Shown here one piece after another: positions 1 through 17,504 of a stretch of DNA of 28,629 bases. The stretch is from a virus. The notes under the pieces are model-generated. The model was given only the letters and a program-made list of their open reading frames with translations, was not told the DNA's origin and did not search any database. The stretch spans positions 1 to 28,629 of the IMG/VR virus record IMGVR_UViG_3300025030_000352, one strand, 5' to 3'. A program made the translations under genes and the position numbers. Within the stretch, counting starts at the first letter, position 1. Each line of letters opens with the position of its first letter.

Positions 1-759
1 AGTCGTATCCATCACATATGCTCCTGTTCCAAAAGTTCCTGCTAATACCGAGGCTGCCGGAAGTCCTGTGGCATTGGTTAATACAAGAGCTGATGGAGTG
101 CCAAGAGCTGGAGTGATCAATGTCGGCGATGTCCCCAATACTACCGCGCCCGTGCCGGTAGAAGTCGTAGTCCCTGTGCCGCCGATAGCCACTTCCAGCG
201 TCCCTGTAGAAAAGAATGAAGTTGCGCTATCTCCTGTCAATGCCCCCCCCGCCTCCGCGTCCCCTGCGGCATAGTTACCAGTGGTATCGGTTGTCAGAGC
301 TACGGAATTGGCCTGTATCGTAGCCGTTGCGCCAGAAGTAACCACATCCCCGGTTAATGCTCCTGCCTGATAACCAGAGCAAACTGAACCCGTAGTGCAG
401 GCAGTTCCTGTCTCGGCAGGCAAGGTAATGATCGTAGTTCCCGCTATTGCAGTAGGTTTCAGGGCCGTAGTGCCAGAGGTTGCGCCTTTGAAGGTAAGGG
501 TATTACCTTGTGTGCCGTCAAAAGCCGCGCCAGATGTAATGTCGCCTACAGTGGTAATGTCGCCAGATCCTCCGGCTAAAGAGGCAGTGCCATCTGCATT
601 GTCGGTAAGTTCAGAGTTACCCACTTTTAGTTTATAAACAATAATAGATGGGCTTCCATCTTCTTCCTCTACCCAGGTTTTTATCCCTTCCGAACTATCC
701 TGGGCGTAAAGCGGAGTCAACAGAAATAACCCAAACAAGAGTATGAATATTTTTTTCAT
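1..759 (-). CDS. Fibre-like protein with signal peptide (3' end cut by window edge)
   Basis: The frame is open from an ATG at 759 to base 1, giving 253 residues with no stop, so the C-terminus lies outside the window. The first 20 or so residues (MKKIFILLFGLFLLTPLYA, then QD) have a positive start, a hydrophobic core and an L-Y-A cleavage site, as in a Sec signal peptide. The rest is low-complexity Gly/Thr/Ala sequence. It includes LITPALGTPSALVLTNATGL, a motif common in phage tail-fibre and collar-associated proteins. The start overlaps the TGA of the upstream gene as ATGA. No good Shine-Dalgarno is seen, so translation is probably coupled. The fibre-like role is inferred from composition and position at the end of the tail module. 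A signal peptide on such a protein is odd: it could instead be an exported host-surface protein. Confidence 0.75.
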   Translation of the reverse strand, partial: MKKIFILLFGLFLLTPLYAQDSSEGIKTWVEEEDGSPSIIVYKLKVGNSELTDNADGTASLAGGSGDITTVGDITSGAAFDGTQGNTLTFKGATSGTTALKPTAIAGTTIITLPAETGTACTTGSVCSGYQAGALTGDVVTSGATATIQANSVALTTDTTGNYAAGDAEAGGALTGDSATSFFSTGTLEVAIGGTGTTTSTGTGAVVLGTSPTLITPALGTPSALVLTNATGLPAASVLAGTFGTGAYVMDTT

Positions 760-1070
760 CGTAAATATGTTACTTGTGCTGTTGCCGAAGTAGCGCCTGT
801 GCGGATGAACTTTACATTATTTAGCTGGCTATAGCCTTCCAATAATAAAGATTGTGTTGGATTGTATAAATGCCCGACTGTAGAGCTGGGGTCAGTCCCG
901 TCCATCCGCATCCGGCATTGAGAAGTTTCAAAAGTAATGAATACCCGCTTGGACTTTGGCGCAGAAGCGAGTTTGCTGGCAGTCAATCCTATGGCTATGT
1001 TGGCAATGGTAATGGTTTCAAAGTCGTAAGGCGTATATTTACCGATTATATGCTGCCGCGCGTCTATCAT
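756..1070 (-). CDS. Small beta-rich phage protein, probable virion component
   Basis: This 104-residue protein lies between the giant polyvalent protein and the fibre-like gene. It overlaps both by ATGA (stop/start at 1067-1070 and 756-759), so the three are probably translationally coupled. The sequence is rich in alternating hydrophobic and Thr/Ser residues. A central segment reads like phage small structural proteins: ITFETSQCRMRMDGTDPSS, then a SLLLEGYSQ stretch, and a C-terminal beta strand (AQVTYLR). It has no signal peptide, membrane helix or enzyme motif. The family resemblance is from memory and no search was run. The structural role is inferred from position and composition. Confidence 0.75.
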   Translation of the reverse strand: MIDARQHIIGKYTPYDFETITIANIAIGLTASKLASAPKSKRVFITFETSQCRMRMDGTDPSSTVGHLYNPTQSLLLEGYSQLNNVKFIRTGATSATAQVTYLR

Positions 1071-4000
1071 TGGTTTAGTTTTTTCCTTTCATTCTTTTCT
1101 TTCCGGATAATGAACGCTTGTGCTTCGTCTGGGTCTATGCGTTTAATATAAATTCCCGATAATAAACTTAGCAAAATATCATCTTTATAATTTAAGACAG
1201 GCTTATCTATTGTAGTCCGTCTGCCTACCGCTCCCGTAACTGCACCCTCAACAGGCACTCTTATCGTTCTTATTTTTCCGTGTAATTTATCTTGCAAATC
1301 GTTGTCAGTTGTCGGAATAACTTTAGTAAAAGACTGATAGAAATATTCCTGTTTTCTCTGGAAGGGGTCATTCATTCTGGAAATATCATTTAGTATCCTG
1401 TATCCTGGCATAAAAGTTGCTATACTGTCTCCTAATATCACAGGGACAGGGGTATAGAGTTGATACTTATTTCTATAATCAAGCGCCAACATCCCCATTT
1501 GTCCCACAGGGCCCAAAGAACCAAGCATATCGGACAACTGGTCTTTGCCGGCTTCCCAGTGTCCCTCCGCGAATTGCATCCCCGCTTCACTTAAATTAAA
1601 GAAGGGATATTTAGCCGTCCGGACGAACATCTCCAGGCCTTCCTTGTCAGCACCGATAAAAAGCCTGCCGCGTGGAGATACATAAGCGGGTGTTTCTTCC
1701 GTGCCTTCAGGAGTAAGTTGCTTTTCTTTTTGTTTATTACGCAACATAGCATAAACAGACACGAGTGTCGTTATGGTCAGGAGGTTTGCCAATCTTTCCC
1801 GCCAAGACAAAGTCCTATCAAAGATTGACCCTATTATGTTTAAGACCTGCTTTGCGTATTTATAAGGATATTTTAAAAAAGGTTTGATAGCCGAACCAAG
1901 CGGATGACGGTTAAACTCCTCAAGCTGTCCGGGGACATTATTATAGTTATACGCGTATAAGTCAACAGCATTATTCAGTTCAACCAATAACTGCCTTTCT
2001 TCATTCGTCGGAATTGCCAGCCCTTCTTTCGTTACTTGTTTTAACCTGTCTAATGTAGAAACATTTTCAGAGAGTAAAATAACCTTCTTCCAATATCTTT
2101 CTACCGCCCCATATAATTTTAAGGTTTTATCCGCGTAAGCATCAACCGCTTTGCTTAATCCTGGCTTTTCAGTGAATTGTCCGTAGAAACTTGAAACATC
2201 TCCGCCATACATCCAATCTTCCGCCTCAAACCACCCTCTCGGCATAAGGGCTTTTACTATTGCCGACACATCCCGCTTTGTCTGTGTAAACTCTAATTGG
2301 CCTGTAAGCAATTCAGTGTAAAAATCCGATACTATCTTATGCGTATATTGTATTCCCCCGCTAATAAAGTTAGTCCCCGTCAGACCAAGGTGGAACAAGA
2401 TATTTACCCGCCAATACCTATTCAAGTCATTTACAACCCTCATCATTGTAGTCGCTTCATCCTGCAAATCCTTTATCAGTTTATAGCGCTTATAAATGGC
2501 TTTGGGCATTTGGTAGCGGACTTGTCTCGCGACAAAGGTTTTGCCCGTAGCTTTATCTATGATTATGGTTTTCTTTTCTTGCGTTGTCCCGATGCCTTTT
2601 TTTATATCGCCGACAACCTCTATCCAGCCTGGCTCTGGCGCTTGCCCTTCCAATATAGGTTTGGTTACGCGTGGAAACCATCTCTGAATAAAATCATTGT
2701 AGGCTTTCTCTCCCTCTAAATCTACCATTGCCTTATAAAGCGACTTTTGCAAATCCTTGACAAAATCTTCTGACCCCTCCCTGTGAAATCGCGTCCCCGC
2801 TTTTGCTTCTTTAATTCTCTTGCCGCCAGGGATTGCCGCTGGCCGCCCTTCAACATAATGATGAACCCAACCCTCTATATCCCCCTCTATTTTATAGGTA
2901 GCTTTTAGCACTTCCCTATTAAATAAATCCTTGGCTTCATCTTTTTGGGCGGTGAATTCTTTAATCAGCGCCTGCCCCTCCGGCGATAGTTGAGTAAAAA
3001 AATCTTCAGCTTCCTCTGGGGTATATCTTGCTTTCGCGTATAGTGGATATTTTGTGCCATCCTCTATCCGTTCTCCCGTTAATTCCCATCCTAATTTTCG
3101 TAAATTTAACTCCTCTTGTTCGTTTTTCGCTATCTGAAAATCCCTTGTCCCGAATTCCGGTTTTCCGCTTTTAGTTACTTTGATGGACTCCGCGGCATTA
3201 AATAATAATTCCGGACTATCTTTAACCCCTTTAAATTTAGTATTCAGGAATCTCTCAAGGATTGTCTTGGCTCTTTCTTTTAACGCTTGATATGCCAATA
3301 TATCGCCATAAGCTAACTCGCCTACCCTTTTGCCCGACTGTCTAAGATGCATCTCTCTTAAATCTGGCAAGATATAAAACTTTGTTTGTCCTTTGTCTAT
3401 GGTCTCTCGCATTGCCTCCAGGAATTCCCCGATTATTGGATGCTTAACAGCTTGTTTCTGAAAATTATCCCAAGCCGTAGGGGCAATTTCCCCTAAATTA
3501 CCAGGCGACTCTATCATCTTCTGCATAAATCTTGCCAGCAGTTCGGTCTTTTGCAAGTAGTATCGCGGATTACCGCTTACCGCGGCCTCGCCTTCCAAGG
3601 CTTTTGTAACAGCGATAAGCTCATCTTTTATCTTTGCGATAATATCCGGGGTTAGGTCATCGCCAAAAACTTTGAAAGTTTCCTTATTTATACTTTTTAA
3701 CAAATTCCATTCTAAGGCGTGGCCCAATTCGTGAGCTAAAACAGAGGCATAATTAAATGGTGGCTCTATGTATTCTGATCGCAGTCTAACTTCTCCCGTA
3801 GGCAATACCCGCTTAGTAAGTTTGCCCTTGCCCGGCCTGACAAACTGCCCTACCGCCTGCTTCTTAGAAATTCCGCCAGTTCGCCTTAGTATTGATTGCA
3901 TCTGTCCAAATTTATTCAACTGTTCTATGGTCTTTTTCCATTCTTCGGGTGTCTTGGCTATATGCGTTACATCAATTTCCCGTGGGCGACTGGGTTCTTT

Positions 4001-6256
4001 GGCAAACCCCGTGCCGGAAACGGATGATTTAAATAACTCCCCCTGTTTTTCCGTAGACAATCCGAACTTTAACGCAGTAAGCTTCTCTTCGGCTTGGGGT
4101 TTGGCTGCTCTTAGCCCGCCAGGGGGCATTGAACGCTGTTCTGTGCGTTGAGAAAGTTTATCCCACTCTGCTTTTAGTTGAGGGAGGGTTTTGGATGACT
4201 GAGTCAATCTTGCATTATCAAATATAGCCCAATGCCACGCTTCCTTGTCCCCACCCTCAAAAGCATAGTATTTAACCGAGTCGTATCCGTTCAATTTAGC
4301 CCACTGTAGAGTTTCGCTAAAGTTTCCGTGTTCACCAGTATATTTTGAGAAGCTTGGTATTTTACCGAGGTCTAATGTTCGACCACTATTTAACTTCCAC
4401 GTGGTAACTTCTCCTAAACTAACATCTTCCAATAATTTTGATTCTAACGCCTTCCTTTCCTCTACTAATCTTTCATATTCCCCCCTTTTCTCTTCGGGGA
4501 CTGTATGCGTCCAAGGGTCTTCCATTGCTCTTGTTTGTTTATATAAGGCATCAAGCCTGCCACCCGCCCCCTTGTAATAGGCAAGCCCTTCTGCGTAAGA
4601 TTTCGCTGTCGGTATCTCCTCTGATACGAAGGTTGCTAATTTTGCTGATTGTGCCTTTGTTGCCGCGCCGCGAGTTGCAGTATTAAACTCACGTATTCCT
4701 TTCTCCCCTCCGTGAAACACTACCCCCTGTCCCTTCACCCACTCATCAAAAGATTGACCTGCGGCTTTGACTTGCTGGATTGAGGCGGGTAAACTTACCT
4801 TCCCTTCGCCCACCGGTTTATCCGGTAATTTGGCAAGGTCTAATTTTGCTTTGGGTATGATAAGTATAGGCGGCGGTGTTGGTAATTCACCTATCTTTGC
4901 TTTTGCGTTTTCTACCGATTTGCGCACCATATCAAGCTCATTGCTGTCCATCTTTTTCCCTGAAATATTCTTCCCGGATTTCAATATCATTTCTCCTTCA
5001 GCAATACTGTTTCTTATCGTCTGGATTCTGGCTTTGTCGGTAATAACGGCAGGAGTAAACGAAACAACAGGTATTGGGGCGATTGGCGGTTGAGCGATTG
5101 CAGCTGACGGAAGTGGAATAGTCGAGGTGGCAGGTTTAAGCTGAGGTAATAATCCAGCGGTAGCTGGCCTCGGCTTTTCTGCTGATGCAGCCGTTATCTT
5201 TTCAAACGGTTTAATTCCAAAGGCAGATTTTATCTTACCCCAGAATGGCTTATCAGTTAATCTTACAATCTTTTCAGCAGGGATGTTAATATCTATCCCT
5301 TTTTGTAAAGCATCTCTCAATTGATGACTTTTTAATCCCAAGCTCCCATATAAAGATTGTTGTTCAGGTGTAGTCAACTTCTCTGTCTGATAAATATCTT
5401 TTACCTGCTTAGAAGACAATCTAACTGTTTTGGGCAGATTATATTCCGTTAATTTGGTTTTAGTAAATTTCTCTAATGCCGCGGGCGCTTTTCTGAATAC
5501 TCCGCCTACAATCGCACCCTTGCCAATAAAATCCGCTAATTCAATAGCGGTTCTCACATCATCATTTATATCAGAGGGAATAAATTTTTCAGTAGGAATA
5601 AGTTTATCCAAAACTCCAAAAGCAGTTAATCCCGCCAATGTCCCTACTGGGTTCACTGCTAATCCTGCCGCCATTAAAGGAGCGGTTGCTAATTCCATAT
5701 ATTCTTTTTTGCCTATGCCCGGCCTTATACCTGTAATTTTCTCTTGCCGGGCTAATTCTTGATAATTTTTTCTTACTTCCGGCAACGGAATCCCCGCCGC
5801 TTGTGAAATAGCATAGATATTTTGCGCTTTAGCAATTCCCACTTGAGGGGACTCCCTAAAGAATCCTTTTATCTTTTCGCCGATAGTTGAAGGCGGGGCT
5901 TGTCTAATTTCTGGAATCCCCCTCGCTTGGGGAATAGAAGCAATGTCTTGCATTACGGCAGGAATATCCGTAATACCAGAAATATCAGCTCCTCGCTTCA
6001 TAGCTTCAGGAGAAAACGCTTTCCTATCCAGGGCTATACCTGGCTCTTGGGCTAATAGATTTGGAATGTTGGCTAATCGAAGTTTTTGCAACCCTGCACT
6101 TTCCTCGTGTGGTTTTTTTTTAAATAAAGATGGTTTTGGCGGTTTACTAACTTTAGAAGTTATTGTCCTCCCCTCTATTTCTTTTGAGTAGAAATCTTCC
6201 GTAGGGGAGAGTGTTGCGACATTGCCCGCTATTTCTTCAGCGAAGAAATCCTTCAT
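1067..6256 (-). CDS. Giant polyvalent ejection-type protein with ART-like and HExxH protease segments
   Basis: This 1729-residue protein is the largest in the window. It sits where short-tailed phages keep proteins ejected into the host with the DNA. The N-terminal part (about 1-350) is Pro/Lys-rich with a hydrophobic stretch near residues 192-216. Residues about 512-684 resemble the ADP-ribosyltransferase domains of phage polyvalent proteins: VVFHGG around 512-517, then GYDSVKYYAFEGG and WHWAIFD ending near 681. A zinc-metallopeptidase motif HELGH is at 842-846, followed by ALEW and a downstream ELLARF segment that could supply a further ligand. The C-terminal 450 residues are helical with hydrophobic patches, including LTITTLVSVYAML. 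The start overlaps the upstream stop as ATGA, with AGGAA nearby. Delivery into the host and enzyme activity are inferences; the HExxH motif is seen directly. Confidence 0.85.
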   Translation of the reverse strand: MKDFFAEEIAGNVATLSPTEDFYSKEIEGRTITSKVSKPPKPSLFKKKPHEESAGLQKLRLANIPNLLAQEPGIALDRKAFSPEAMKRGADISGITDIPAVMQDIASIPQARGIPEIRQAPPSTIGEKIKGFFRESPQVGIAKAQNIYAISQAAGIPLPEVRKNYQELARQEKITGIRPGIGKKEYMELATAPLMAAGLAVNPVGTLAGLTAFGVLDKLIPTEKFIPSDINDDVRTAIELADFIGKGAIVGGVFRKAPAALEKFTKTKLTEYNLPKTVRLSSKQVKDIYQTEKLTTPEQQSLYGSLGLKSHQLRDALQKGIDINIPAEKIVRLTDKPFWGKIKSAFGIKPFEKITAASAEKPRPATAGLLPQLKPATSTIPLPSAAIAQPPIAPIPVVSFTPAVITDKARIQTIRNSIAEGEMILKSGKNISGKKMDSNELDMVRKSVENAKAKIGELPTPPPILIIPKAKLDLAKLPDKPVGEGKVSLPASIQQVKAAGQSFDEWVKGQGVVFHGGEKGIREFNTATRGAATKAQSAKLATFVSEEIPTAKSYAEGLAYYKGAGGRLDALYKQTRAMEDPWTHTVPEEKRGEYERLVEERKALESKLLEDVSLGEVTTWKLNSGRTLDLGKIPSFSKYTGEHGNFSETLQWAKLNGYDSVKYYAFEGGDKEAWHWAIFDNARLTQSSKTLPQLKAEWDKLSQRTEQRSMPPGGLRAAKPQAEEKLTALKFGLSTEKQGELFKSSVSGTGFAKEPSRPREIDVTHIAKTPEEWKKTIEQLNKFGQMQSILRRTGGISKKQAVGQFVRPGKGKLTKRVLPTGEVRLRSEYIEPPFNYASVLAHELGHALEWNLLKSINKETFKVFGDDLTPDIIAKIKDELIAVTKALEGEAAVSGNPRYYLQKTELLARFMQKMIESPGNLGEIAPTAWDNFQKQAVKHPIIGEFLEAMRETIDKGQTKFYILPDLREMHLRQSGKRVGELAYGDILAYQALKERAKTILERFLNTKFKGVKDSPELLFNAAESIKVTKSGKPEFGTRDFQIAKNEQEELNLRKLGWELTGERIEDGTKYPLYAKARYTPEEAEDFFTQLSPEGQALIKEFTAQKDEAKDLFNREVLKATYKIEGDIEGWVHHYVEGRPAAIPGGKRIKEAKAGTRFHREGSEDFVKDLQKSLYKAMVDLEGEKAYNDFIQRWFPRVTKPILEGQAPEPGWIEVVGDIKKGIGTTQEKKTIIIDKATGKTFVARQVRYQMPKAIYKRYKLIKDLQDEATTMMRVVNDLNRYWRVNILFHLGLTGTNFISGGIQYTHKIVSDFYTELLTGQLEFTQTKRDVSAIVKALMPRGWFEAEDWMYGGDVSSFYGQFTEKPGLSKAVDAYADKTLKLYGAVERYWKKVILLSENVSTLDRLKQVTKEGLAIPTNEERQLLVELNNAVDLYAYNYNNVPGQLEEFNRHPLGSAIKPFLKYPYKYAKQVLNIIGSIFDRTLSWRERLANLLTITTLVSVYAMLRNKQKEKQLTPEGTEETPAYVSPRGRLFIGADKEGLEMFVRTAKYPFFNLSEAGMQFAEGHWEAGKDQLSDMLGSLGPVGQMGMLALDYRNKYQLYTPVPVILGDSIATFMPGYRILNDISRMNDPFQRKQEYFYQSFTKVIPTTDNDLQDKLHGKIRTIRVPVEGAVTGAVGRRTTIDKPVLNYKDDILLSLLSGIYIKRIDPDEAQAFIIRKEKNERKKLNQ

Positions 6257-11922: not shown

Positions 11923-12065
11923 ATTTATCCGCAAATCTTACCCAAAAATCTATTGTAAAATCTCCATTCAAATAAAAGTCATCGTGGTTAGGTATAGTAA
12001 GATAATCACCTGTGCCATCAAATAATCCACTCGCGGTGCCGAAGTTTTTAATCATATTTATCCGC
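11911..12065. repeat. 22-bp direct repeats flanking a 111-bp LamG insertion
   Basis: The 22-bp sequence GTTTTTAATCATATTTATCCGC occurs identically at 11911-11932 and 12044-12065, 133 bp apart. On the minus strand each copy holds the end of the adaptor gene context and the first codons of the nozzle gene (ATG ATT AAA AAC). Removing one copy plus the 111 bp between them would place the nozzle ATG two bases after the adaptor stop, matching the tight spacing of the rest of the operon. This looks like an insertion with junction duplication. Confidence 0.8.
11915..12055 (-). pseudogene. LamG-domain fragment ORF (46 codons)
   Basis: This small open frame starts at an ATG at 12055, in the same MIKN context as the nozzle gene, and stops at TAA 11915. 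It encodes a partial LamG module, FGTASGLFDGTGDYLTIPNH followed by DFTIDFWVRF. The matching nozzle stretch is FGTASGLFDGTGDYLSTPDH followed by DFTIDGQFRF. It covers only about 38 residues of a roughly 200-residue domain, so it cannot fold as a whole LamG. It is similar to the nozzle LamG but not a recent exact copy, because the second half differs. It overlaps the nozzle start by 8 bases. Best read as a remnant of domain exchange or a recombination by-product; a short translated peptide cannot be excluded. Confidence 0.6.
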
Positions 12066-12765
12066 CATAATCAACCAACCTGACTCCGCTTGAACTATTT
12101 ATCGCAATCAGAGGCCTGCCTAATCTCGCCTGCCGGCCCTGCTTCTTATCATCAACCTTATGCGCCGCATTCAATAAGCGCATTGCCTTAACTTCCCAGG
12201 AAGTCATTCCGCCGACATCGCCCTGCTTACCGAGTAAATCCGAGACTGCCAGATATACAATCGCCATTTGCTGGGAAGTATCAGGGACATCAGGGACATC
12301 GGTATCCGCGGACAATTCTACAGGCTTTTTTACATAATCATAATTGATTGTAGAATATTGTGAAACGAAAGAAGCCGAGGGGCGAGGGGAGAATTGTATT
12401 TTTATTGTGCCATCGGCTTTAGTGATACGGCAATACTGCGGAGAGGCATCCGTGGAAGCAAGGACAACCTGCGTCCACTTATCGTCATCCACAACATCAA
12501 TCGGTATCTTTATGCCATTAGAATTATACCAGCAAGAGATGATGTGGTTAAAATTAGAAGCCAGAGTATATGCTTGAGTAGAAGCAACCGGCGTAATGGT
12601 CGCCTCGCGTTTGAGGTTTTCCCAATTCCGCAGAGATGCTATTAGCCGCAAAGCGTCATTTACCGCCCGCTTGGCTTTTACATCGGCATTAACGACATTA
12701 TTGATATTAGCGTAATCTTTAACGCGGGTATAAATGTCGGAAAATTCCAACCCAAAATTCGCCAT
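12058..12765 (-). CDS. Head-tail adaptor (connector) protein
   Basis: This 235-residue protein is encoded just upstream of the nozzle gene, which is where podoviruses encode the adaptor that seals the portal and docks the tail. The N-terminal third is helical with Arg/Asn/Trp features typical of phage adaptors (AKRAVNDALRLIASLRNWE). Then comes a beta-rich middle with ITPVASTQAYTLASNFNHI and IKIQFSPRPSASF, and a helical C-terminal part with QQMAIVYLAVSDLLGKQGD. GAGGTGAT lies about 5 bases before the ATG. The gene ends ...DYGG-TAA inside the 22-bp repeat. The adaptor call rests on pattern and gene order. Confidence 0.75.
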   Translation of the reverse strand: MANFGLEFSDIYTRVKDYANINNVVNADVKAKRAVNDALRLIASLRNWENLKREATITPVASTQAYTLASNFNHIISCWYNSNGIKIPIDVVDDDKWTQVVLASTDASPQYCRITKADGTIKIQFSPRPSASFVSQYSTINYDYVKKPVELSADTDVPDVPDTSQQMAIVYLAVSDLLGKQGDVGGMTSWEVKAMRLLNAAHKVDDKKQGRQARLGRPLIAINSSSGVRLVDYGG

Positions 12766-12778
12766 TTATCACCTCATA

Positions 12779-13219
12779 TTAAATATTCTTTATAGCTTCG
12801 CTAATCATCAACAACAAAGCTTTTATCTTCTGAATTTTTATCTTGCCCTCGACTTCCTGTATGGCCAGATTATTTTTCATCCCTTCATTAGATTTGATTA
12901 AATCGGAAGCGGCTTTTAAATGATCTTTCAATTCTTCCTGTTTCTGCACGCTCTCTGCTTCTCTGGCATTGGCTTTATTGACTTTATCTTGAGCAAATTC
13001 AATCATCTCTCCTGACTTAGTCTCGGCAGCCTTAACCTGTTTTTCAATTTTTTCAGCAAGATTAGAAATTTCCGTATCTAACCCATCTCGTTTGGCGGTC
13101 AAATCTTTAACATTCGTTTCTAATCCTACTTTTCTTGTGGTTAATATCCTAAGCTCGGTCTCCAACTGTTTCACAGACTCATTGACATCTATTATCGCGC
13201 TTACATTTCGTCTGGGCAT
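12779..13219 (-). CDS. Coiled-coil protein of the late operon
   Basis: This 146-residue protein is almost entirely charged helix. From about residue 12 it shows heptad-like spacing (VKQLETELRILTTRKVGLE, then LTAKRDGLDTEISNLAEKI), as expected for a long coiled coil. It ends in a more hydrophobic helix (KALLLMISEAIKNI). A strong Shine-Dalgarno (AGGAGGGG) precedes the ATG. No enzyme motif, signal peptide or membrane segment is seen. Position between head and tail genes suggests a structural, assembly or chaperone role, but no function is recognised. Confidence 0.75.
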   Translation of the reverse strand: MPRRNVSAIIDVNESVKQLETELRILTTRKVGLETNVKDLTAKRDGLDTEISNLAEKIEKQVKAAETKSGEMIEFAQDKVNKANAREAESVQKQEELKDHLKAASDLIKSNEGMKNNLAIQEVEGKIKIQKIKALLLMISEAIKNI

Positions 13220-13230
13220 CGTATCCCCTC

Positions 13231-13506
13231 CTATTTTTTATGTTTAGTTTTACTGTGGACAAGCAGGCCTTGTTCTGATTTTGCCACAAACCCGCACTTA
13301 TCACATTCTAACTTTCGTTTTTCCTGTTCTTTTGGTTCTTCCATCGCAACCCTGAACTCCCCCCTATTCGGAAGACTGAAGATATGGTTTATCATCGCGG
13401 GGTTATCGGTTTCCGCGGCACGCCCATTTTCTTTAGTAAAATAGAGCGACTCCCTGTTTAATGTTACTTTCAGCCAAGTCCTACCCCCAACATAAAGAAT
13501 TCTCAA
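13231..13506 (-). CDS. Small C2H2 zinc-finger protein, TTG start
   Basis: The frame is open upstream to 13638, but that part overlaps the membrane protein gene. The best start is a TTG at 13506, which overlaps the upstream TGA as TTGA and lies 6-7 bases after a strong GGAGGTGG. This gives 91 residues starting (M)RILYVGGRTWLKVTLN. The N-terminal part is a small beta-rich domain with NRESLYFTKENGR. A basic C-terminus carries one classical zinc finger: CDKCGFVAKSEQ, GLLVHSKTKHKK, that is Cx2C-x12-Hx4H. Single C2H2 fingers occur in some phage late-operon proteins. DNA binding, head-gene regulation or a structural zinc site are all possible. Confidence 0.75.
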   Translation of the reverse strand: MRILYVGGRTWLKVTLNRESLYFTKENGRAAETDNPAMINHIFSLPNRGEFRVAMEEPKEQEKRKLECDKCGFVAKSEQGLLVHSKTKHKK

Positions 13507-14591
13507 ATTACCACCTCCATTTTGGTTATCTCCGCAAAACTCAATAATACAATTCCGGTCCCCGCTATCCTGGCAAAATGTATTGGCGATTGTCCCAAGC
13601 AGATTATCGCAAGGATAAGACAACTTGCGACAATACAACGGGATAAATCCGCCCTGCCGAAGGTAAACCTATCTTTTAAAAACATCATTAGACAAATTAA
13701 CGCGGGTATGCCTGCGTAAAAAGCAATGCTCAAATACTCATTGTAAATCCACTCTGCAAGGCCCATTGGAGTTACTGCCGAAAATGTCCCTAACCCTGCT
13801 CCAATCCACGGATGCCTAAAAATCTGCCTTATAACATCAAGCCATATATCAGCCCGCAAAGAAAGCTTATAAGTTGCGCTTTGTGAGATCCTCGCCAGGA
13901 ATACTATGGAAATCCCTGTTAGCGCGACCAGCCCAATCAAGGCAAGGTTAATGATTATCTTTCTTCTTTGCGGATACCAGAGATAAGTTAAGCCCACCAA
14001 TAAGGCAAGAAACGGAGTAAGCGACTTTGATAAAAGTAAACCGATAAGCGGAATAATTGAAAGATATGGATTTATTGCCCAGCATACAGGAATAGCTATC
14101 GCTTGGTATGCCCCCAGGTGCGACATTGAACACATCAGCCCGGCGTATTTATAAATTACAGGGATACCAAAAAATTGCAGAACCGCGGCAATGGTATTTA
14201 GTATTGATACAAAAATAATGCTATAAAGTAATGGCTTGATATTCACAGTATAGGCTACCACCAGATAATATAACAAGCTCCCCAGGAATATAGGTAAAAA
14301 AGCGTTGATAGTTTTAGGATGAAACAACACACTCAAGGCACACAAGCCCAGGAAGCCCGCGAAGTATTTATCTCTGAATTCCCTGACCGGCTTCCGTGAT
14401 AAGGCGAGAATAAATAAAGCTATAATCCCATATTGAAAAAACTGGAATTGTAAAATATTGTTATTAAAAGACATTGTCTTAAACTGATAAAATTGCAATG
14501 CCATTACCTGTCCGTTCACCCTGGCAGGAAAACCCACCAAAACGATTATTGGCGATAAAAATAAGAATATCCCCAATGCAAAGTTAAACAT
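13503..14591 (-). CDS. O-antigen ligase/polymerase-like polytopic membrane protein
   Basis: This 362-residue protein has about ten hydrophobic segments, for example GIFLFLSPIIVLVGF, YGIIALFILAL, PLIGLLLSKSLTPFLALLVG and GIVLLSFAEI. The second half shows the Wzy_C/WaaL hallmark: an Arg before a Trp-containing helix (LRADIWLDVIRQIF, R246), then HPWIGAGLG at 260-268, then WIYNEYLSIAFYAGIPAL (N284) in a long loop before the next helix. Family members transfer or polymerise lipid-linked glycans on the periplasmic face. The usual H-N pair before the last helices appears here as Y-N-E-Y. The gene overlaps its upstream neighbour as TAATG. A membrane glycan enzyme in a head-tail gene block is unusual; altering host surface polysaccharide is an inference. 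Confidence 0.75.
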   Translation of the reverse strand: MFNFALGIFLFLSPIIVLVGFPARVNGQVMALQFYQFKTMSFNNNILQFQFFQYGIIALFILALSRKPVREFRDKYFAGFLGLCALSVLFHPKTINAFLPIFLGSLLYYLVVAYTVNIKPLLYSIIFVSILNTIAAVLQFFGIPVIYKYAGLMCSMSHLGAYQAIAIPVCWAINPYLSIIPLIGLLLSKSLTPFLALLVGLTYLWYPQRRKIIINLALIGLVALTGISIVFLARISQSATYKLSLRADIWLDVIRQIFRHPWIGAGLGTFSAVTPMGLAEWIYNEYLSIAFYAGIPALICLMMFLKDRFTFGRADLSRCIVASCLILAIICLGQSPIHFARIAGTGIVLLSFAEITKMEVVI

Positions 14592-14950
14592 TATTCGTAT
14601 TCTACCACCACATTAGCGTTATTTACCACTAAATAAAGCCCTGTTGAACCCTCTATCGGTTTACCAACAAAATCAAGCGGCTTACCATTGCCTGATGTCG
14701 CTTCTGAACCTTCGGTCTTTACATTGGTATTTGAACCTTCCCCCGCGGTTAAGCTATCATAAACGGTAAAAGAGCCATTGGCCGCCGTAGCAACATAGCT
14801 TATCCGATAAATCTTCCAATCGCCCCGCTTGATTAAAATATTAGAGGTATAGCCCGCCGTTGTGGATGTGTTCCTATCGGCCAGGACAGGGCTTAATAGA
14901 AATAGTCCAACCAAAAAAATGCCCATCATAACAAAAATCCCTTTTCTCAT
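14591..14950 (-). CDS. Small beta-rich protein with signal peptide (paralogue B)
   Basis: This 119-residue protein begins MRKGIFVMMGIFLVGLFLLS and continues PVLADRN: a basic start, a hydrophobic core and a V-L-A cleavage site, a convincing Sec signal peptide. The mature part is a compact beta domain (WKIYRISYVATAANGSFTVY, then TEGSEAT and KPLDFVGKPIEG, ending LYLVVNNANVVVEYE). It is clearly paralogous to the gene immediately upstream: both share the AAN, EG-EAT, LDF, GL-VV-N and V-EY positions. A similar fold is common in small phage proteins encoded just after the capsid protein, so head decoration is one idea. The signal peptide argues for export or membrane anchoring. AAGGAG precedes the ATG; the stop overlaps the ligase-like gene (TAATG). 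Confidence 0.8.
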   Translation of the reverse strand: MRKGIFVMMGIFLVGLFLLSPVLADRNTSTTAGYTSNILIKRGDWKIYRISYVATAANGSFTVYDSLTAGEGSNTNVKTEGSEATSGNGKPLDFVGKPIEGSTGLYLVVNNANVVVEYE

Positions 14951-15008: not shown

Positions 15009-15377
15009 TTAAATATACTCAATAGTTACATACGCACCATTAGTTACAACCACCAACCCGCTACTGAAAGTAATTCCCTCATCCCCGAAATCAAGAGTAG
15101 GGAGAGAGTCATACTGGGTTGCCTCGCCGCCTTCTACCTTACAGGTAGAAGCTGTGGCAGCGCCAAGAGTAGAAGCATTATACAAGCCATACACGGCGTT
15201 TGCCGCATTAGCATATCCCGTAACCTTGTATAATGTAACCCCTTGCGTAGAGGTAACTTCATCCGCGGTTATAACTTTTGACTTCCTCGCGATTGTCCTG
15301 GTTTCATCAGCTTGAGAAAAAGAAAACAAGCCGAAGCCCATTAGCATTACGAGGATTAAAATAAATGTTTTTTTCAT
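15009..15377 (-). CDS. Small beta-rich protein with signal peptide (paralogue A), next to capsid gene
   Basis: This 122-residue protein is encoded 11 bases after the major capsid protein. The N-terminus (MKKTFILILVMLMGFGLFSF, then SQADE) has a Lys-rich start, a hydrophobic core and an S-Q-A cleavage site. The mature part is Thr/Ala-rich beta sequence (GVTLYKVTGYANAANAVYGL, then KVEGGEAT, PTLDFGDEG and a C-terminal VVVTNGAYVTIEYI). It shares the conserved positions of paralogue B. Proteins of this size and pattern after a capsid gene are usually decoration or head-fibre proteins, which are assembled in the cytoplasm; a Sec-like leader is therefore unexpected. A GGGAGG Shine-Dalgarno lies close to the ATG. 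Function is unknown; tandem duplication is well supported by eye. Confidence 0.8.
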   Translation of the reverse strand: MKKTFILILVMLMGFGLFSFSQADETRTIARKSKVITADEVTSTQGVTLYKVTGYANAANAVYGLYNASTLGAATASTCKVEGGEATQYDSLPTLDFGDEGITFSSGLVVVTNGAYVTIEYI

Positions 15378-15388
15378 TTCATCCTCCC

Positions 15389-16729
15389 TTATATGCTAAT
15401 TGGATTATCGGAATAGGTCTTCAGCAGGACATAATTTACCGCACTGCCCGCGCTATCCTTTATTACCGATTGCCCGTAAACTGCGGCTATCCCAAGGCCG
15501 TTTTCAAAATAACTGCCATCAGGAAACTTATAGTCGCGTCCCTGGGTAATCGGGACCGGCTTCATTCCCCATCCACGCAACGCTATTTCCGCCCCAAAAC
15601 CGATTACAGTGGCGATATTGCGTTGTGTAATAAGGTCGCCGGCAGTATGCGCGGCGGCAGTTGTTCCGTTTACTCCTCTGATGCAACCTGCAAACCGGTA
15701 AGTTGAACCGGTTACTCCACCCACGGTTACGCTGGTATAGGTTGTTTCCTCGCTACCGATTGTAATCGTATCAGAGGAAGCAAAGAAATCACCTAAATCC
15801 TTCTTGGTTGTAGAAACGTCAAAATCAATCGTAGTGGCGCTTGCATTGATATTGGCATACAACCTTACTTCCGGCCGTAATGGTGAACCCTGTATGTTAT
15901 TGGCTGACTTTTTGGCCCGATGAACATACAGAATTACTCCATTGTATATCCCCAAAGCGCCGGTAAATATTCTATTCTTACCGTAATCCCTGGGTCCTGC
16001 GTCTCTTTGGGCCTGAGACCACACCGAGTCGCCTTTCAGCCAATACTCATCCATTTCCGAAATAACCGCGCCGTAATACTCTTCCTCTTCGCCGTTTTCC
16101 CCCTCAACACGAATTGGGATGGCGGTTCTGGAAAGAGCTAATTTTATGCGGTCAATTTCTTCTGTGCCAAAATGGTCATTAACGCCAAGTGTGGCATTGC
16201 TTATCGCGTCTCCTGCATACATCGTATTACTTGCGTTGGAGATAAGCGCGGAGAACATATCGGAGTCAATCTTCCTTTTCAGCCAATCGGACAGTTCAGT
16301 CCTGATTGTCTGACCAATATTAAAATTGACTCTTTTCTCCAAGCTCTTGGTGTAGGCAACCGCGTTCCTCAACCAATCTACGGTTAAGGTATATTGGCCT
16401 AATGCTAATTGGTCTTCGTTAGTTTCCAATGAATTTTCACCAGTTACGCCAGCAGAGAAAAGCTGGGATACGACATTAAACTTAATCGTTTCCCCCGGCT
16501 TCTTGGTAAAATCTTCATTTACAATTATAGGCTTACGAGAACCTTCCTTGCCCTCAAACCTTGACCCCCAAAATGCGCGCCTGATTGCGTCATCACGCAA
16601 ACGGTCAGCCCAGTAGGTCGGGACTGCGTTCTGCAATACTCCCGCCCCGGAGTCATAACCCATCGCGTTTAGGGTTTCGCCTCTTTCACTACCTAATAGT
16701 GAAAAGAGATGTCTCAAAAATTTAAACAT
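15389..16729 (-). CDS. Major capsid protein, N4-gp56/DUF4043-like, with inserted domain
   Basis: The ATG at 16729 is preferred over an upstream in-frame start at 16789. It lies 5 bases after AGGAGG and two bases after the scaffold stop, giving 446 residues. The first half matches the N4-gp56-like capsid family: WADRLRDDAIRRAFWGSRFEG, KKPGETIKFNVVSQL, GVTGENSLETNEDQLALGQY, then TVDWLRNAVAYTKS and LSDWLKRKIDSDMFSAL. Later parts include GALGIYNGVILYVHRAKKS and IALRGWGMKPVPITQGRDY. Residues about 295-372 look like an extra beta domain (TTIDFDVSTTKKDLGDFF, IGSEETTYTSVTVGG, CIRGVNGTTAAAHTAGD) of a kind found in many phage structural proteins; it probably sits on the capsid surface. The protein forms the icosahedral head. 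Confidence 0.88.
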   Translation of the reverse strand: MFKFLRHLFSLLGSERGETLNAMGYDSGAGVLQNAVPTYWADRLRDDAIRRAFWGSRFEGKEGSRKPIIVNEDFTKKPGETIKFNVVSQLFSAGVTGENSLETNEDQLALGQYTLTVDWLRNAVAYTKSLEKRVNFNIGQTIRTELSDWLKRKIDSDMFSALISNASNTMYAGDAISNATLGVNDHFGTEEIDRIKLALSRTAIPIRVEGENGEEEEYYGAVISEMDEYWLKGDSVWSQAQRDAGPRDYGKNRIFTGALGIYNGVILYVHRAKKSANNIQGSPLRPEVRLYANINASATTIDFDVSTTKKDLGDFFASSDTITIGSEETTYTSVTVGGVTGSTYRFAGCIRGVNGTTAAAHTAGDLITQRNIATVIGFGAEIALRGWGMKPVPITQGRDYKFPDGSYFENGLGIAAVYGQSVIKDSAGSAVNYVLLKTYSDNPISI

Positions 16730-16730
16730 A

Positions 16731-17504
16731 CTATCCTCCTTGTTGTGCCAAATCATAGGCATCTTTTTCATCCGAAGAAAGTTTGTCATATTCTTCGTAA
16801 GGTAGCGCCTTTTTAATCCCAGCGGCCTTAGATCCTGGCCCCTGGATTGCCCCCAACTTATTCTTATTCACCGGTTGCGCTGCCGCCTGCTTCTCCCGTT
16901 TGGACAATATCGCATACGCCTCAACGGTAGCCTGGTATTCGGCCTCCGGTGTAGTGTATTTCTGAAAAGTCCCATCTGGAGCAAATACGGCGTATTTATT
17001 GACGATTATCTCATTTGCCAACTGATACAGCGGACTCGCGGTATTCATTTTACCGTCTTTGGCGAAACCAAAATCCGCGCCGAACTCTTCCATCGCTTTA
17101 CTGCGACTCGCCTGCACTCCTGAATTGTAATCATTCAAGAACGCAGATTCCTTTTGCGACTCGGCGATTGCGGACTTGATTTGCGCTTTCGTATAACCTG
17201 CCAATGCCTTCTTAAACTCCGGATCATAACCCTCCAATACCTTCTCAAAGTCCTCATTGCTGTTGGTTTGAGCCGGCGCGGCTTGGGTTTTCGGTTTCCA
17301 GGTCTTGTCATTGTGGTCATACTCGGCAAACTGCTGCAAAGTCCTTACTAACGGCTGCACTTGGCCCTGGCTGTCCGAATAGCGTTTTCTATACGGATTA
17401 GCTTCGTTCTCCCAGTCCACTGTTGGTGGAATGGTTACTTCGGGATTTTCCACGCCTTCCGCTTCTGGCAGGTTAGGCTGGGTTAAATCTTCCGGCTTTG
17501 GCAT
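16731..17504 (-). CDS. Putative head scaffolding protein
   Basis: This 257-residue protein is encoded directly before the major capsid gene, the usual place for a scaffold. It is hydrophilic, rich in Glu, Lys, Gln and Pro, and mostly helical. It opens with an acidic Pro-rich N-terminus (MPKPEDLTQPNLPEAEG), has helical middle parts (EDFEKVLEGYDPEFKKALAG, then AQIKSAIAESQKESAFL) and a short basic segment before the end (GSKAAGIKKALPYEEYDKL) that could contact capsid. It has no membrane or catalytic motif. GGAG lies about 8 bases before the ATG. It is the first gene after an intrinsic terminator, so it may start a separate capsid transcript. The scaffold role is inferred. Confidence 0.72.
   Translation of the reverse strand: MPKPEDLTQPNLPEAEGVENPEVTIPPTVDWENEANPYRKRYSDSQGQVQPLVRTLQQFAEYDHNDKTWKPKTQAAPAQTNSNEDFEKVLEGYDPEFKKALAGYTKAQIKSAIAESQKESAFLNDYNSGVQASRSKAMEEFGADFGFAKDGKMNTASPLYQLANEIIVNKYAVFAPDGTFQKYTTPEAEYQATVEAYAILSKREKQAAAQPVNKNKLGAIQGPGSKAAGIKKALPYEEYDKLSSDEKDAYDLAQQGG

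Follow-up and report, generated by a model that had tools for sequence, protein, structure and literature searches.

The catalytic base of the O-antigen ligase WaaL has been described as His338 and the PH1 arginine as the coordinator of Und-PP (PMC10449877), and in the oligosaccharyltransferase PglS His324 is needed, the H324A form serving as an inactive control (PMC12800693). In phages, Wzy_C proteins appear in the open-access literature searched in lysogenic conversion only (PMC4815439). Virion proteins of the mycobacteriophages Che8 and Rita are glycosylated by phage-encoded glycosyltransferases (Freeman et al. 2023, cited by PMC11256854), and no precedent for a periplasmic glycosylation route in phages was found in the open-access literature searched.

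Here we analyse a 28.6-kb IMG/VR record in its full length (28,629 nucleotides, hereafter the window), the minus strand of which encodes, in order, a terminase, a portal, a scaffold-like protein, a major capsid protein (MCP) of the N4-gp56 type, two proteins with Sec signal peptides (SPa and SPb), a polytopic membrane enzyme, a small protein, a coiled-coil protein, an adaptor and a large virion protein, with the roles of the last three assigned also by comparison with Pan3 (Table 1). Sec-exported proteins followed by what would be the phage's own membrane glycosyltransferase are unexpected behind a capsid gene, as tailed phages assemble in the cytoplasm.

Table 1. Features of the window around the slot between capsid and adaptor genes, and at the window end; arrows mark predicted signal-peptide cleavage.
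Feature	Coordinates	Strand	Basis or detail
Major capsid protein, N4-gp56 type	15389..16789	minus	TIGR04387, E 5e-19, above cut-off; phrog_334, E 1.7e-28
SPa, 122 aa, SPb paralogue	15009..15377	minus	Sec signal peptide (..SFSQA↓DETRTI)
SPb, 119 aa, predicted beta-sandwich	14591..14950	minus	Sec signal peptide (..SPVLA↓DRNTST)
Predicted Wzy_C / O-antigen-ligase-fold membrane protein, 362 aa	13503..14591	minus	Pfam, VIA-align 2, alignments A4, A8 and A10, omega
Small protein, zinc-finger-like, C2H2-like CxxC...HxxxxxH end	13231..13506	minus	Comparison with L002 and others
Coiled-coil protein, position conserved	12779..13219	minus	
Tail adaptor-like protein, closing the slot	12058..12765	minus	phrog_6013 tail protein, E 1.6e-8; same place as Pan3 adaptor
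Fibre-like protein, start, cut at window end	1..759	minus	Sec signal peptide (MKKIFILLFGLFLLTPLYA↓Q)

Family, fold and active site of the membrane enzyme

The Pfam Wzy_C profile (PF04932) matches the window enzyme with an E-value of 7.2e-8 and 32.8 bits, above the curated cut-off of 31.7, and the enzyme of the related record L052 reaches 35.5 bits, with the profile detecting just six of the 12 members of our main family alignment (A4). An omega of 0.15 between the window and L002 enzymes reflects purifying selection, which, together with the retention of the family in many records, argues for a real gene. Searching the PDB with a profile of 12 relatives returned WaaL (7TPG) as the sole match, at an E-value of 0.024, with the PH1 arginine and the H-N motif aligned. 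An AlphaFold model built on this alignment of relatives is of moderate quality (pLDDT 64.7, pTM 0.69). In VIA-align 2 it overlays on WaaL (7tpg) with a Z of 16.8 across 317 aligned residues at an rmsd of 4.9, followed by FtsW (Z 9.7) and RodA (Z 9.1). Foldseek gave no useful match for the model against the PDB, and the WaaL match came from the re-alignment of the same PDB candidates by VIA-align 2. Moreover, the enzyme had no match in PHROG, no useful match in NCBIfam, no separate match to a PglL-type family, and a chance-level match only in a tblastn search of GenBank phages. Aggregated, sequence and model support a place in the Wzy_C family with a WaaL-like GT-C fold. The resemblance to O-antigen ligases or polymerases that had been proposed for this 362-residue minus-strand reading frame hence finds backing in the profile search as well as in the predicted structure, where WaaL is closest by a wide margin.

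Alignment with cellular O-antigen ligases, including that of E. coli, places R246 at WaaL R288 and Y283 at H338. R246, the equivalent of the Und-PP-binding arginine, is invariant across all aligned phage and cellular sequences, and the asparagine of the H-N motif is present as N284. The His338 position is however occupied by Tyr283 in the window and by tyrosine in every relative except L058, whose enzyme retains the canonical H-N motif and reads RHNDYL. The catalytic histidine of PglS-type oligosaccharyltransferases (H324) is likewise unmatched, its place being taken by Tyr283, and no invariant Asp, Glu or His was found in the 12 members of A4. The loop pattern claimed in the preliminary description, R246, HPWIGAGLG at 260-268 and N284, was recovered residue by residue, but the catalytic set that it evoked is incomplete, the histidine of the H-N motif being a tyrosine. 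With His338 replaced, it is doubtful that the enzyme employs the classical WaaL ligase chemistry, and the replacement, in a main family where no acidic residue or histidine is invariant, renders activity itself uncertain.

Exported partners and recurrence of the cassette

Relatives were gathered by searches with the capsid protein, the enzyme, SPa and the terminase. The order MCP, SPa, SPb, enzyme, small protein, in some cases coiled coil, and adaptor recurs in L002, L003, L004, L005, L007, L009, L010, L017, L018, L019, L020, L051 (which ends ahead of the adaptor), L052 and L063. Altogether the enzyme directly follows at least one exported partner in 16 records, namely the window and 15 further IMG/VR records including L058, which with near-identical pairs taken into account represent about a dozen lineages. 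The cassette is present in every record spanning a slot with a Wzy_C enzyme, even as enzyme identity among its carriers falls to about one third; in L052, SPa occurs in two copies. In the window the TAA that ends SPb shares sequence with the start codon (ATG) of the enzyme; nearly all records show such an overlap, of 1-8 bases, and one has a 1-base gap. Pairwise distances of the enzyme correlate with those of SPa (r 0.78) and SPb (0.52), while SPb and MCP distances correlate at only 0.26. The setting is therefore no accident, and its carriers are a group of uncultured short-tailed phages. Scans of genome contigs with the enzyme and the terminase returned no relatives.

These data uphold the remaining structural claims made at the outset: the enzyme lies between capsid-associated and adaptor genes inside the head-tail operon, and it is tightly coupled to signal-peptide proteins. 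The non-lysogenic setting is equally sustained, as a search of 11 related records, mostly fragments, detected no integrase, and lysogenic conversion was rejected on this ground and on gene context.

SPa and SPb are paralogues (hhalign profile match, E 1.8e-21), and in all copies an n-region with Lys/Arg and a hydrophobic core precede a cleavage site of A-X-A type. Signal peptides were called by a simple in-house rule rather than SignalP; the rule picked a later site in two SPa copies, where SNA↓D and SSA↓D are expected, and gave no match in Pan3, in ctDrO704 or in the parts of CRP-7 and ctuNt529 that were covered. SPb is confidently predicted as a beta-sandwich (pLDDT 84.5), and the model resembles small proteins (about 95 aa) encoded by uncultured Caudovirales. 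Against the PDB, the cement protein of phage KHP40 scores a Z of 6.6, tied with many unrelated folds and thus too even to name a family. Neither protein was matched in GenBank phages by tblastn. Enrichment of Ser/Thr in the mature N-termini of the exported proteins is weak (30% versus 20%), and the sequences counted are related to one another.

Several observations concern the neighbouring genes. The annotated start of the major capsid gene may be too early. The small protein downstream of the enzyme begins at a TTG that overlaps the enzyme stop by 4 bases, and a longer frame reaching 13638 is probably an overcalled start. The coiled-coil gene has zero nucleotide differences to its counterpart in L002 (4229-4669), where the neighbouring genes show a dS of 0.12-0.23, reflecting recent exchange or strong constraint. 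A 1729-aa protein with a HELGH metalloprotease-like motif (1067-6256, minus strand) has several domains and is probably ejected. Sec signal peptides are also present on fibre-like late proteins, at the end of the window as well as in all five long relatives (L027, G003; L029, G005; L037, G006; L032, G004; L036, G001), mostly behind a conserved MIDARQ-type protein of about 104 aa, and the C-terminus of the one in G003 (38487-40583) resembles an S74-type chaperone domain.

Further peculiarities were seen in individual records. The L018 portal (2672-5701) and the terminases of L054 (6180-8648), L058 (3615-6155) and L006 (317-3127) are oversized by several hundred residues compared to relatives, and the portal insert, starting CYTPDTEILTKKGW, is intein-like. 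A Phage_capsid_3 capsid frame in L061 (7210-8838) opens with a hydrophobic, signal-peptide-like segment, and behind another Phage_capsid_3 gene, in L060 (12166-13690), two proteins (one of 422 aa) possess signal-peptide-like N-termini, with no membrane enzyme within the part analysed. The 47.7-kb record G006 (L037-L039) contains two diverged copies of one tail gene block (1-5400 and 42704-47743) and may be composite or carry a duplication.

Other occupants of the slot

In Pan3 the adaptor directly follows the capsid gene. In L054, SPa and SPb are instead succeeded by a 487-aa membrane protein with clear C-terminal TPRs and a DD (D29-D30) in the first loop, an architecture like that of the TMTC O-mannosyltransferases (PMC7801869). 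Its match to PMT_2 covers positions 15-157 of 160 and is sub-threshold, with an E-value of 0.011 and 16.4 bits where the cut-off is 26.1, and no match was found in the PDB, phages or plasmids. Based on this one match and the architecture, it is a probable PMT/TMTC-like membrane glycosyltransferase, probably unrelated to the Wzy_C enzyme. In L058 a Mu-gpT-like capsid protein is followed by a protein with a signal peptide and by a Wzy_C protein (E 1.7e-4, below the Pfam cut-off); scans for relatives with the L058 capsid protein, and with the L054 slot protein, each returned the query only.

In ctDrO704, a distantly related GenBank phage, the capsid-side proteins are without signal peptides. The slot between these proteins and the adaptor (L066, 10891-14324) accommodates a TPR protein, an HNH endonuclease, a methyltransferase and a GT8 glycosyltransferase. 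The TPR protein was considered as a membrane enzyme and rejected, being soluble from its sequence. The isolates KLEP18-1 and POI1126 encode, immediately after the capsid gene, a protein without a signal peptide that bears a structural or virion-associated annotation; no similarity in sequence between it and SPa or SPb could be detected.

Candidate roles and comparison with known systems

We tentatively favour a role of the enzyme as a periplasmic glycosyltransferase acting on the exported phage proteins with which it is co-translated, a reading which gene order, the matching of compartments in few cases and the enzyme class bring close to, yet still short of, an even chance. The head-tail operon would express a polytopic inner-membrane enzyme of the WaaL/Wzy_C type (GT-C, SEDS-like), translationally coupled to the preceding exported protein; SPa and SPb would cross via Sec into the periplasm, where sugars would be moved onto them from a host undecaprenyl-linked donor in the manner of an O-oligosaccharyltransferase, and the glycosylated proteins would act on the capsid side or in the envelope, for example decorating virions at lysis. 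Gene order points to SPa and SPb as putative acceptors. For the slot as a whole, the most economical reading would be that its enzymes glycosylate phage proteins encoded next to them, and do so in the periplasm if those proteins are exported.

The preliminary description had instead suggested a late surface-remodelling module. In such a scheme, late in infection, the enzyme would polymerise Und-PP-linked host glycan or ligate it to LPS or capsule, and receptors would be masked by the exported proteins, so that rivals are excluded and progeny is kept off debris. Surface polysaccharides are indeed what the Wzy_C/WaaL family works on, Wzy-beta is used by phages D3 and epsilon15, in D3 with resistance to superinfection (PMC4815439), and the same phages studied here also encode exported fibre-like proteins. 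However, the D3 and epsilon15 genes belong to lysogenic conversion of temperate phages, a setting at odds with the lack of an integrase in the 11 records, the window enzyme is devoid of the catalytic histidine, and nothing indicates host LPS or capsule as the substrate. Moreover, one exported protein is what the enzyme is coupled to, and in L054 and ctDrO704 a probable glycosyltransferase of PMT/TMTC type or soluble glycosyltransferase genes take its slot, so that glycosylation of phage proteins fits better; we consider surface remodelling unlikely.

The altered active site might also hint at a catalytically dead decoy, which would bind Und-PP-glycan or the host ligase, polymerase or SEDS machinery through the conserved arginine and block it, so that the envelope is weakened or receptors are removed ahead of lysis. 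Congruent with this are the exchange of His for Tyr in all relatives but one and the lack of invariant acidic residues or histidine in the main family alongside an invariant R246, FtsW and RodA as the next best structures, and a host-polymerase inhibitor encoded by D3 (PMC4815439). Nevertheless, L058 keeps the canonical H-N motif in a similar cassette, the PMT-like replacement in L054 suggests that transfer activity matters, and Tyr283 is itself conserved, as expected of a used residue, making a decoy quite improbable. Even less probable is that the enzyme, without any sugar chemistry, helps SPa and SPb in lysis, export or assembly, an old glycosyltransferase fold being reused in a chaperone-like manner: strict coupling to SPb and relaxed catalytic residues would agree with it, but the Und-PP-binding arginine and the GxGxGxF-type loop are conserved, and the same slot holds probable glycosyltransferases of other kinds.

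Extending the favoured periplasmic glycosylation of phage proteins to the whole lineage, these phages might operate a periplasmic line of their own, in which capsid-side and perhaps fibre proteins are Sec-exported, glycosylated from host lipid-linked sugars and joined to virions at or after lysis, with unrelated classes of glycosyltransferase able to stand in for one another and signal peptides tracking the membrane side of the enzyme; this broader scenario we regard as rather doubtful. If the exported proteins are glycosylated and virion-borne, part of virion maturation would take place beyond the inner membrane; were they to remain on the cell, they would amount to a late exclusion device of these phages.

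Compared with WaaL from C. metallidurans (7TPG) and E. coli K-12, the window enzyme has in common the GT-C (SEDS-like) fold, the Wzy_C loop, the Und-PP-binding arginine and the H-N asparagine, as far as predicted; it differs in being phage-encoded within a virion operon, in the tyrosine at His338 and in the coupling to exported phage proteins. The O-linked oligosaccharyltransferases PglL and PglS belong to the same superfamily, and transfer of an Und-PP-linked glycan to an exported protein would be a common activity, although the histidine needed in PglS (PMC12800693) is a tyrosine here and the acceptor is putative. With the Wzy-beta serotype conversion of D3 and epsilon15 our locus shares a phage-encoded Wzy_C protein, but theirs reside in temperate lysogenic-conversion units and ours between capsid and adaptor. 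The L054 slot protein resembles the TMTC/PMT O-mannosyltransferases in its membrane N-half, first-loop DD and C-terminal TPRs, whereas other TMTC motifs look degenerate. Finally, the glycosyltransferases acting on mycobacteriophage virions, as in Che8 and Rita, are probably soluble, whereas a membrane enzyme with Sec-signal-peptide partners would place the corresponding step in the periplasm.
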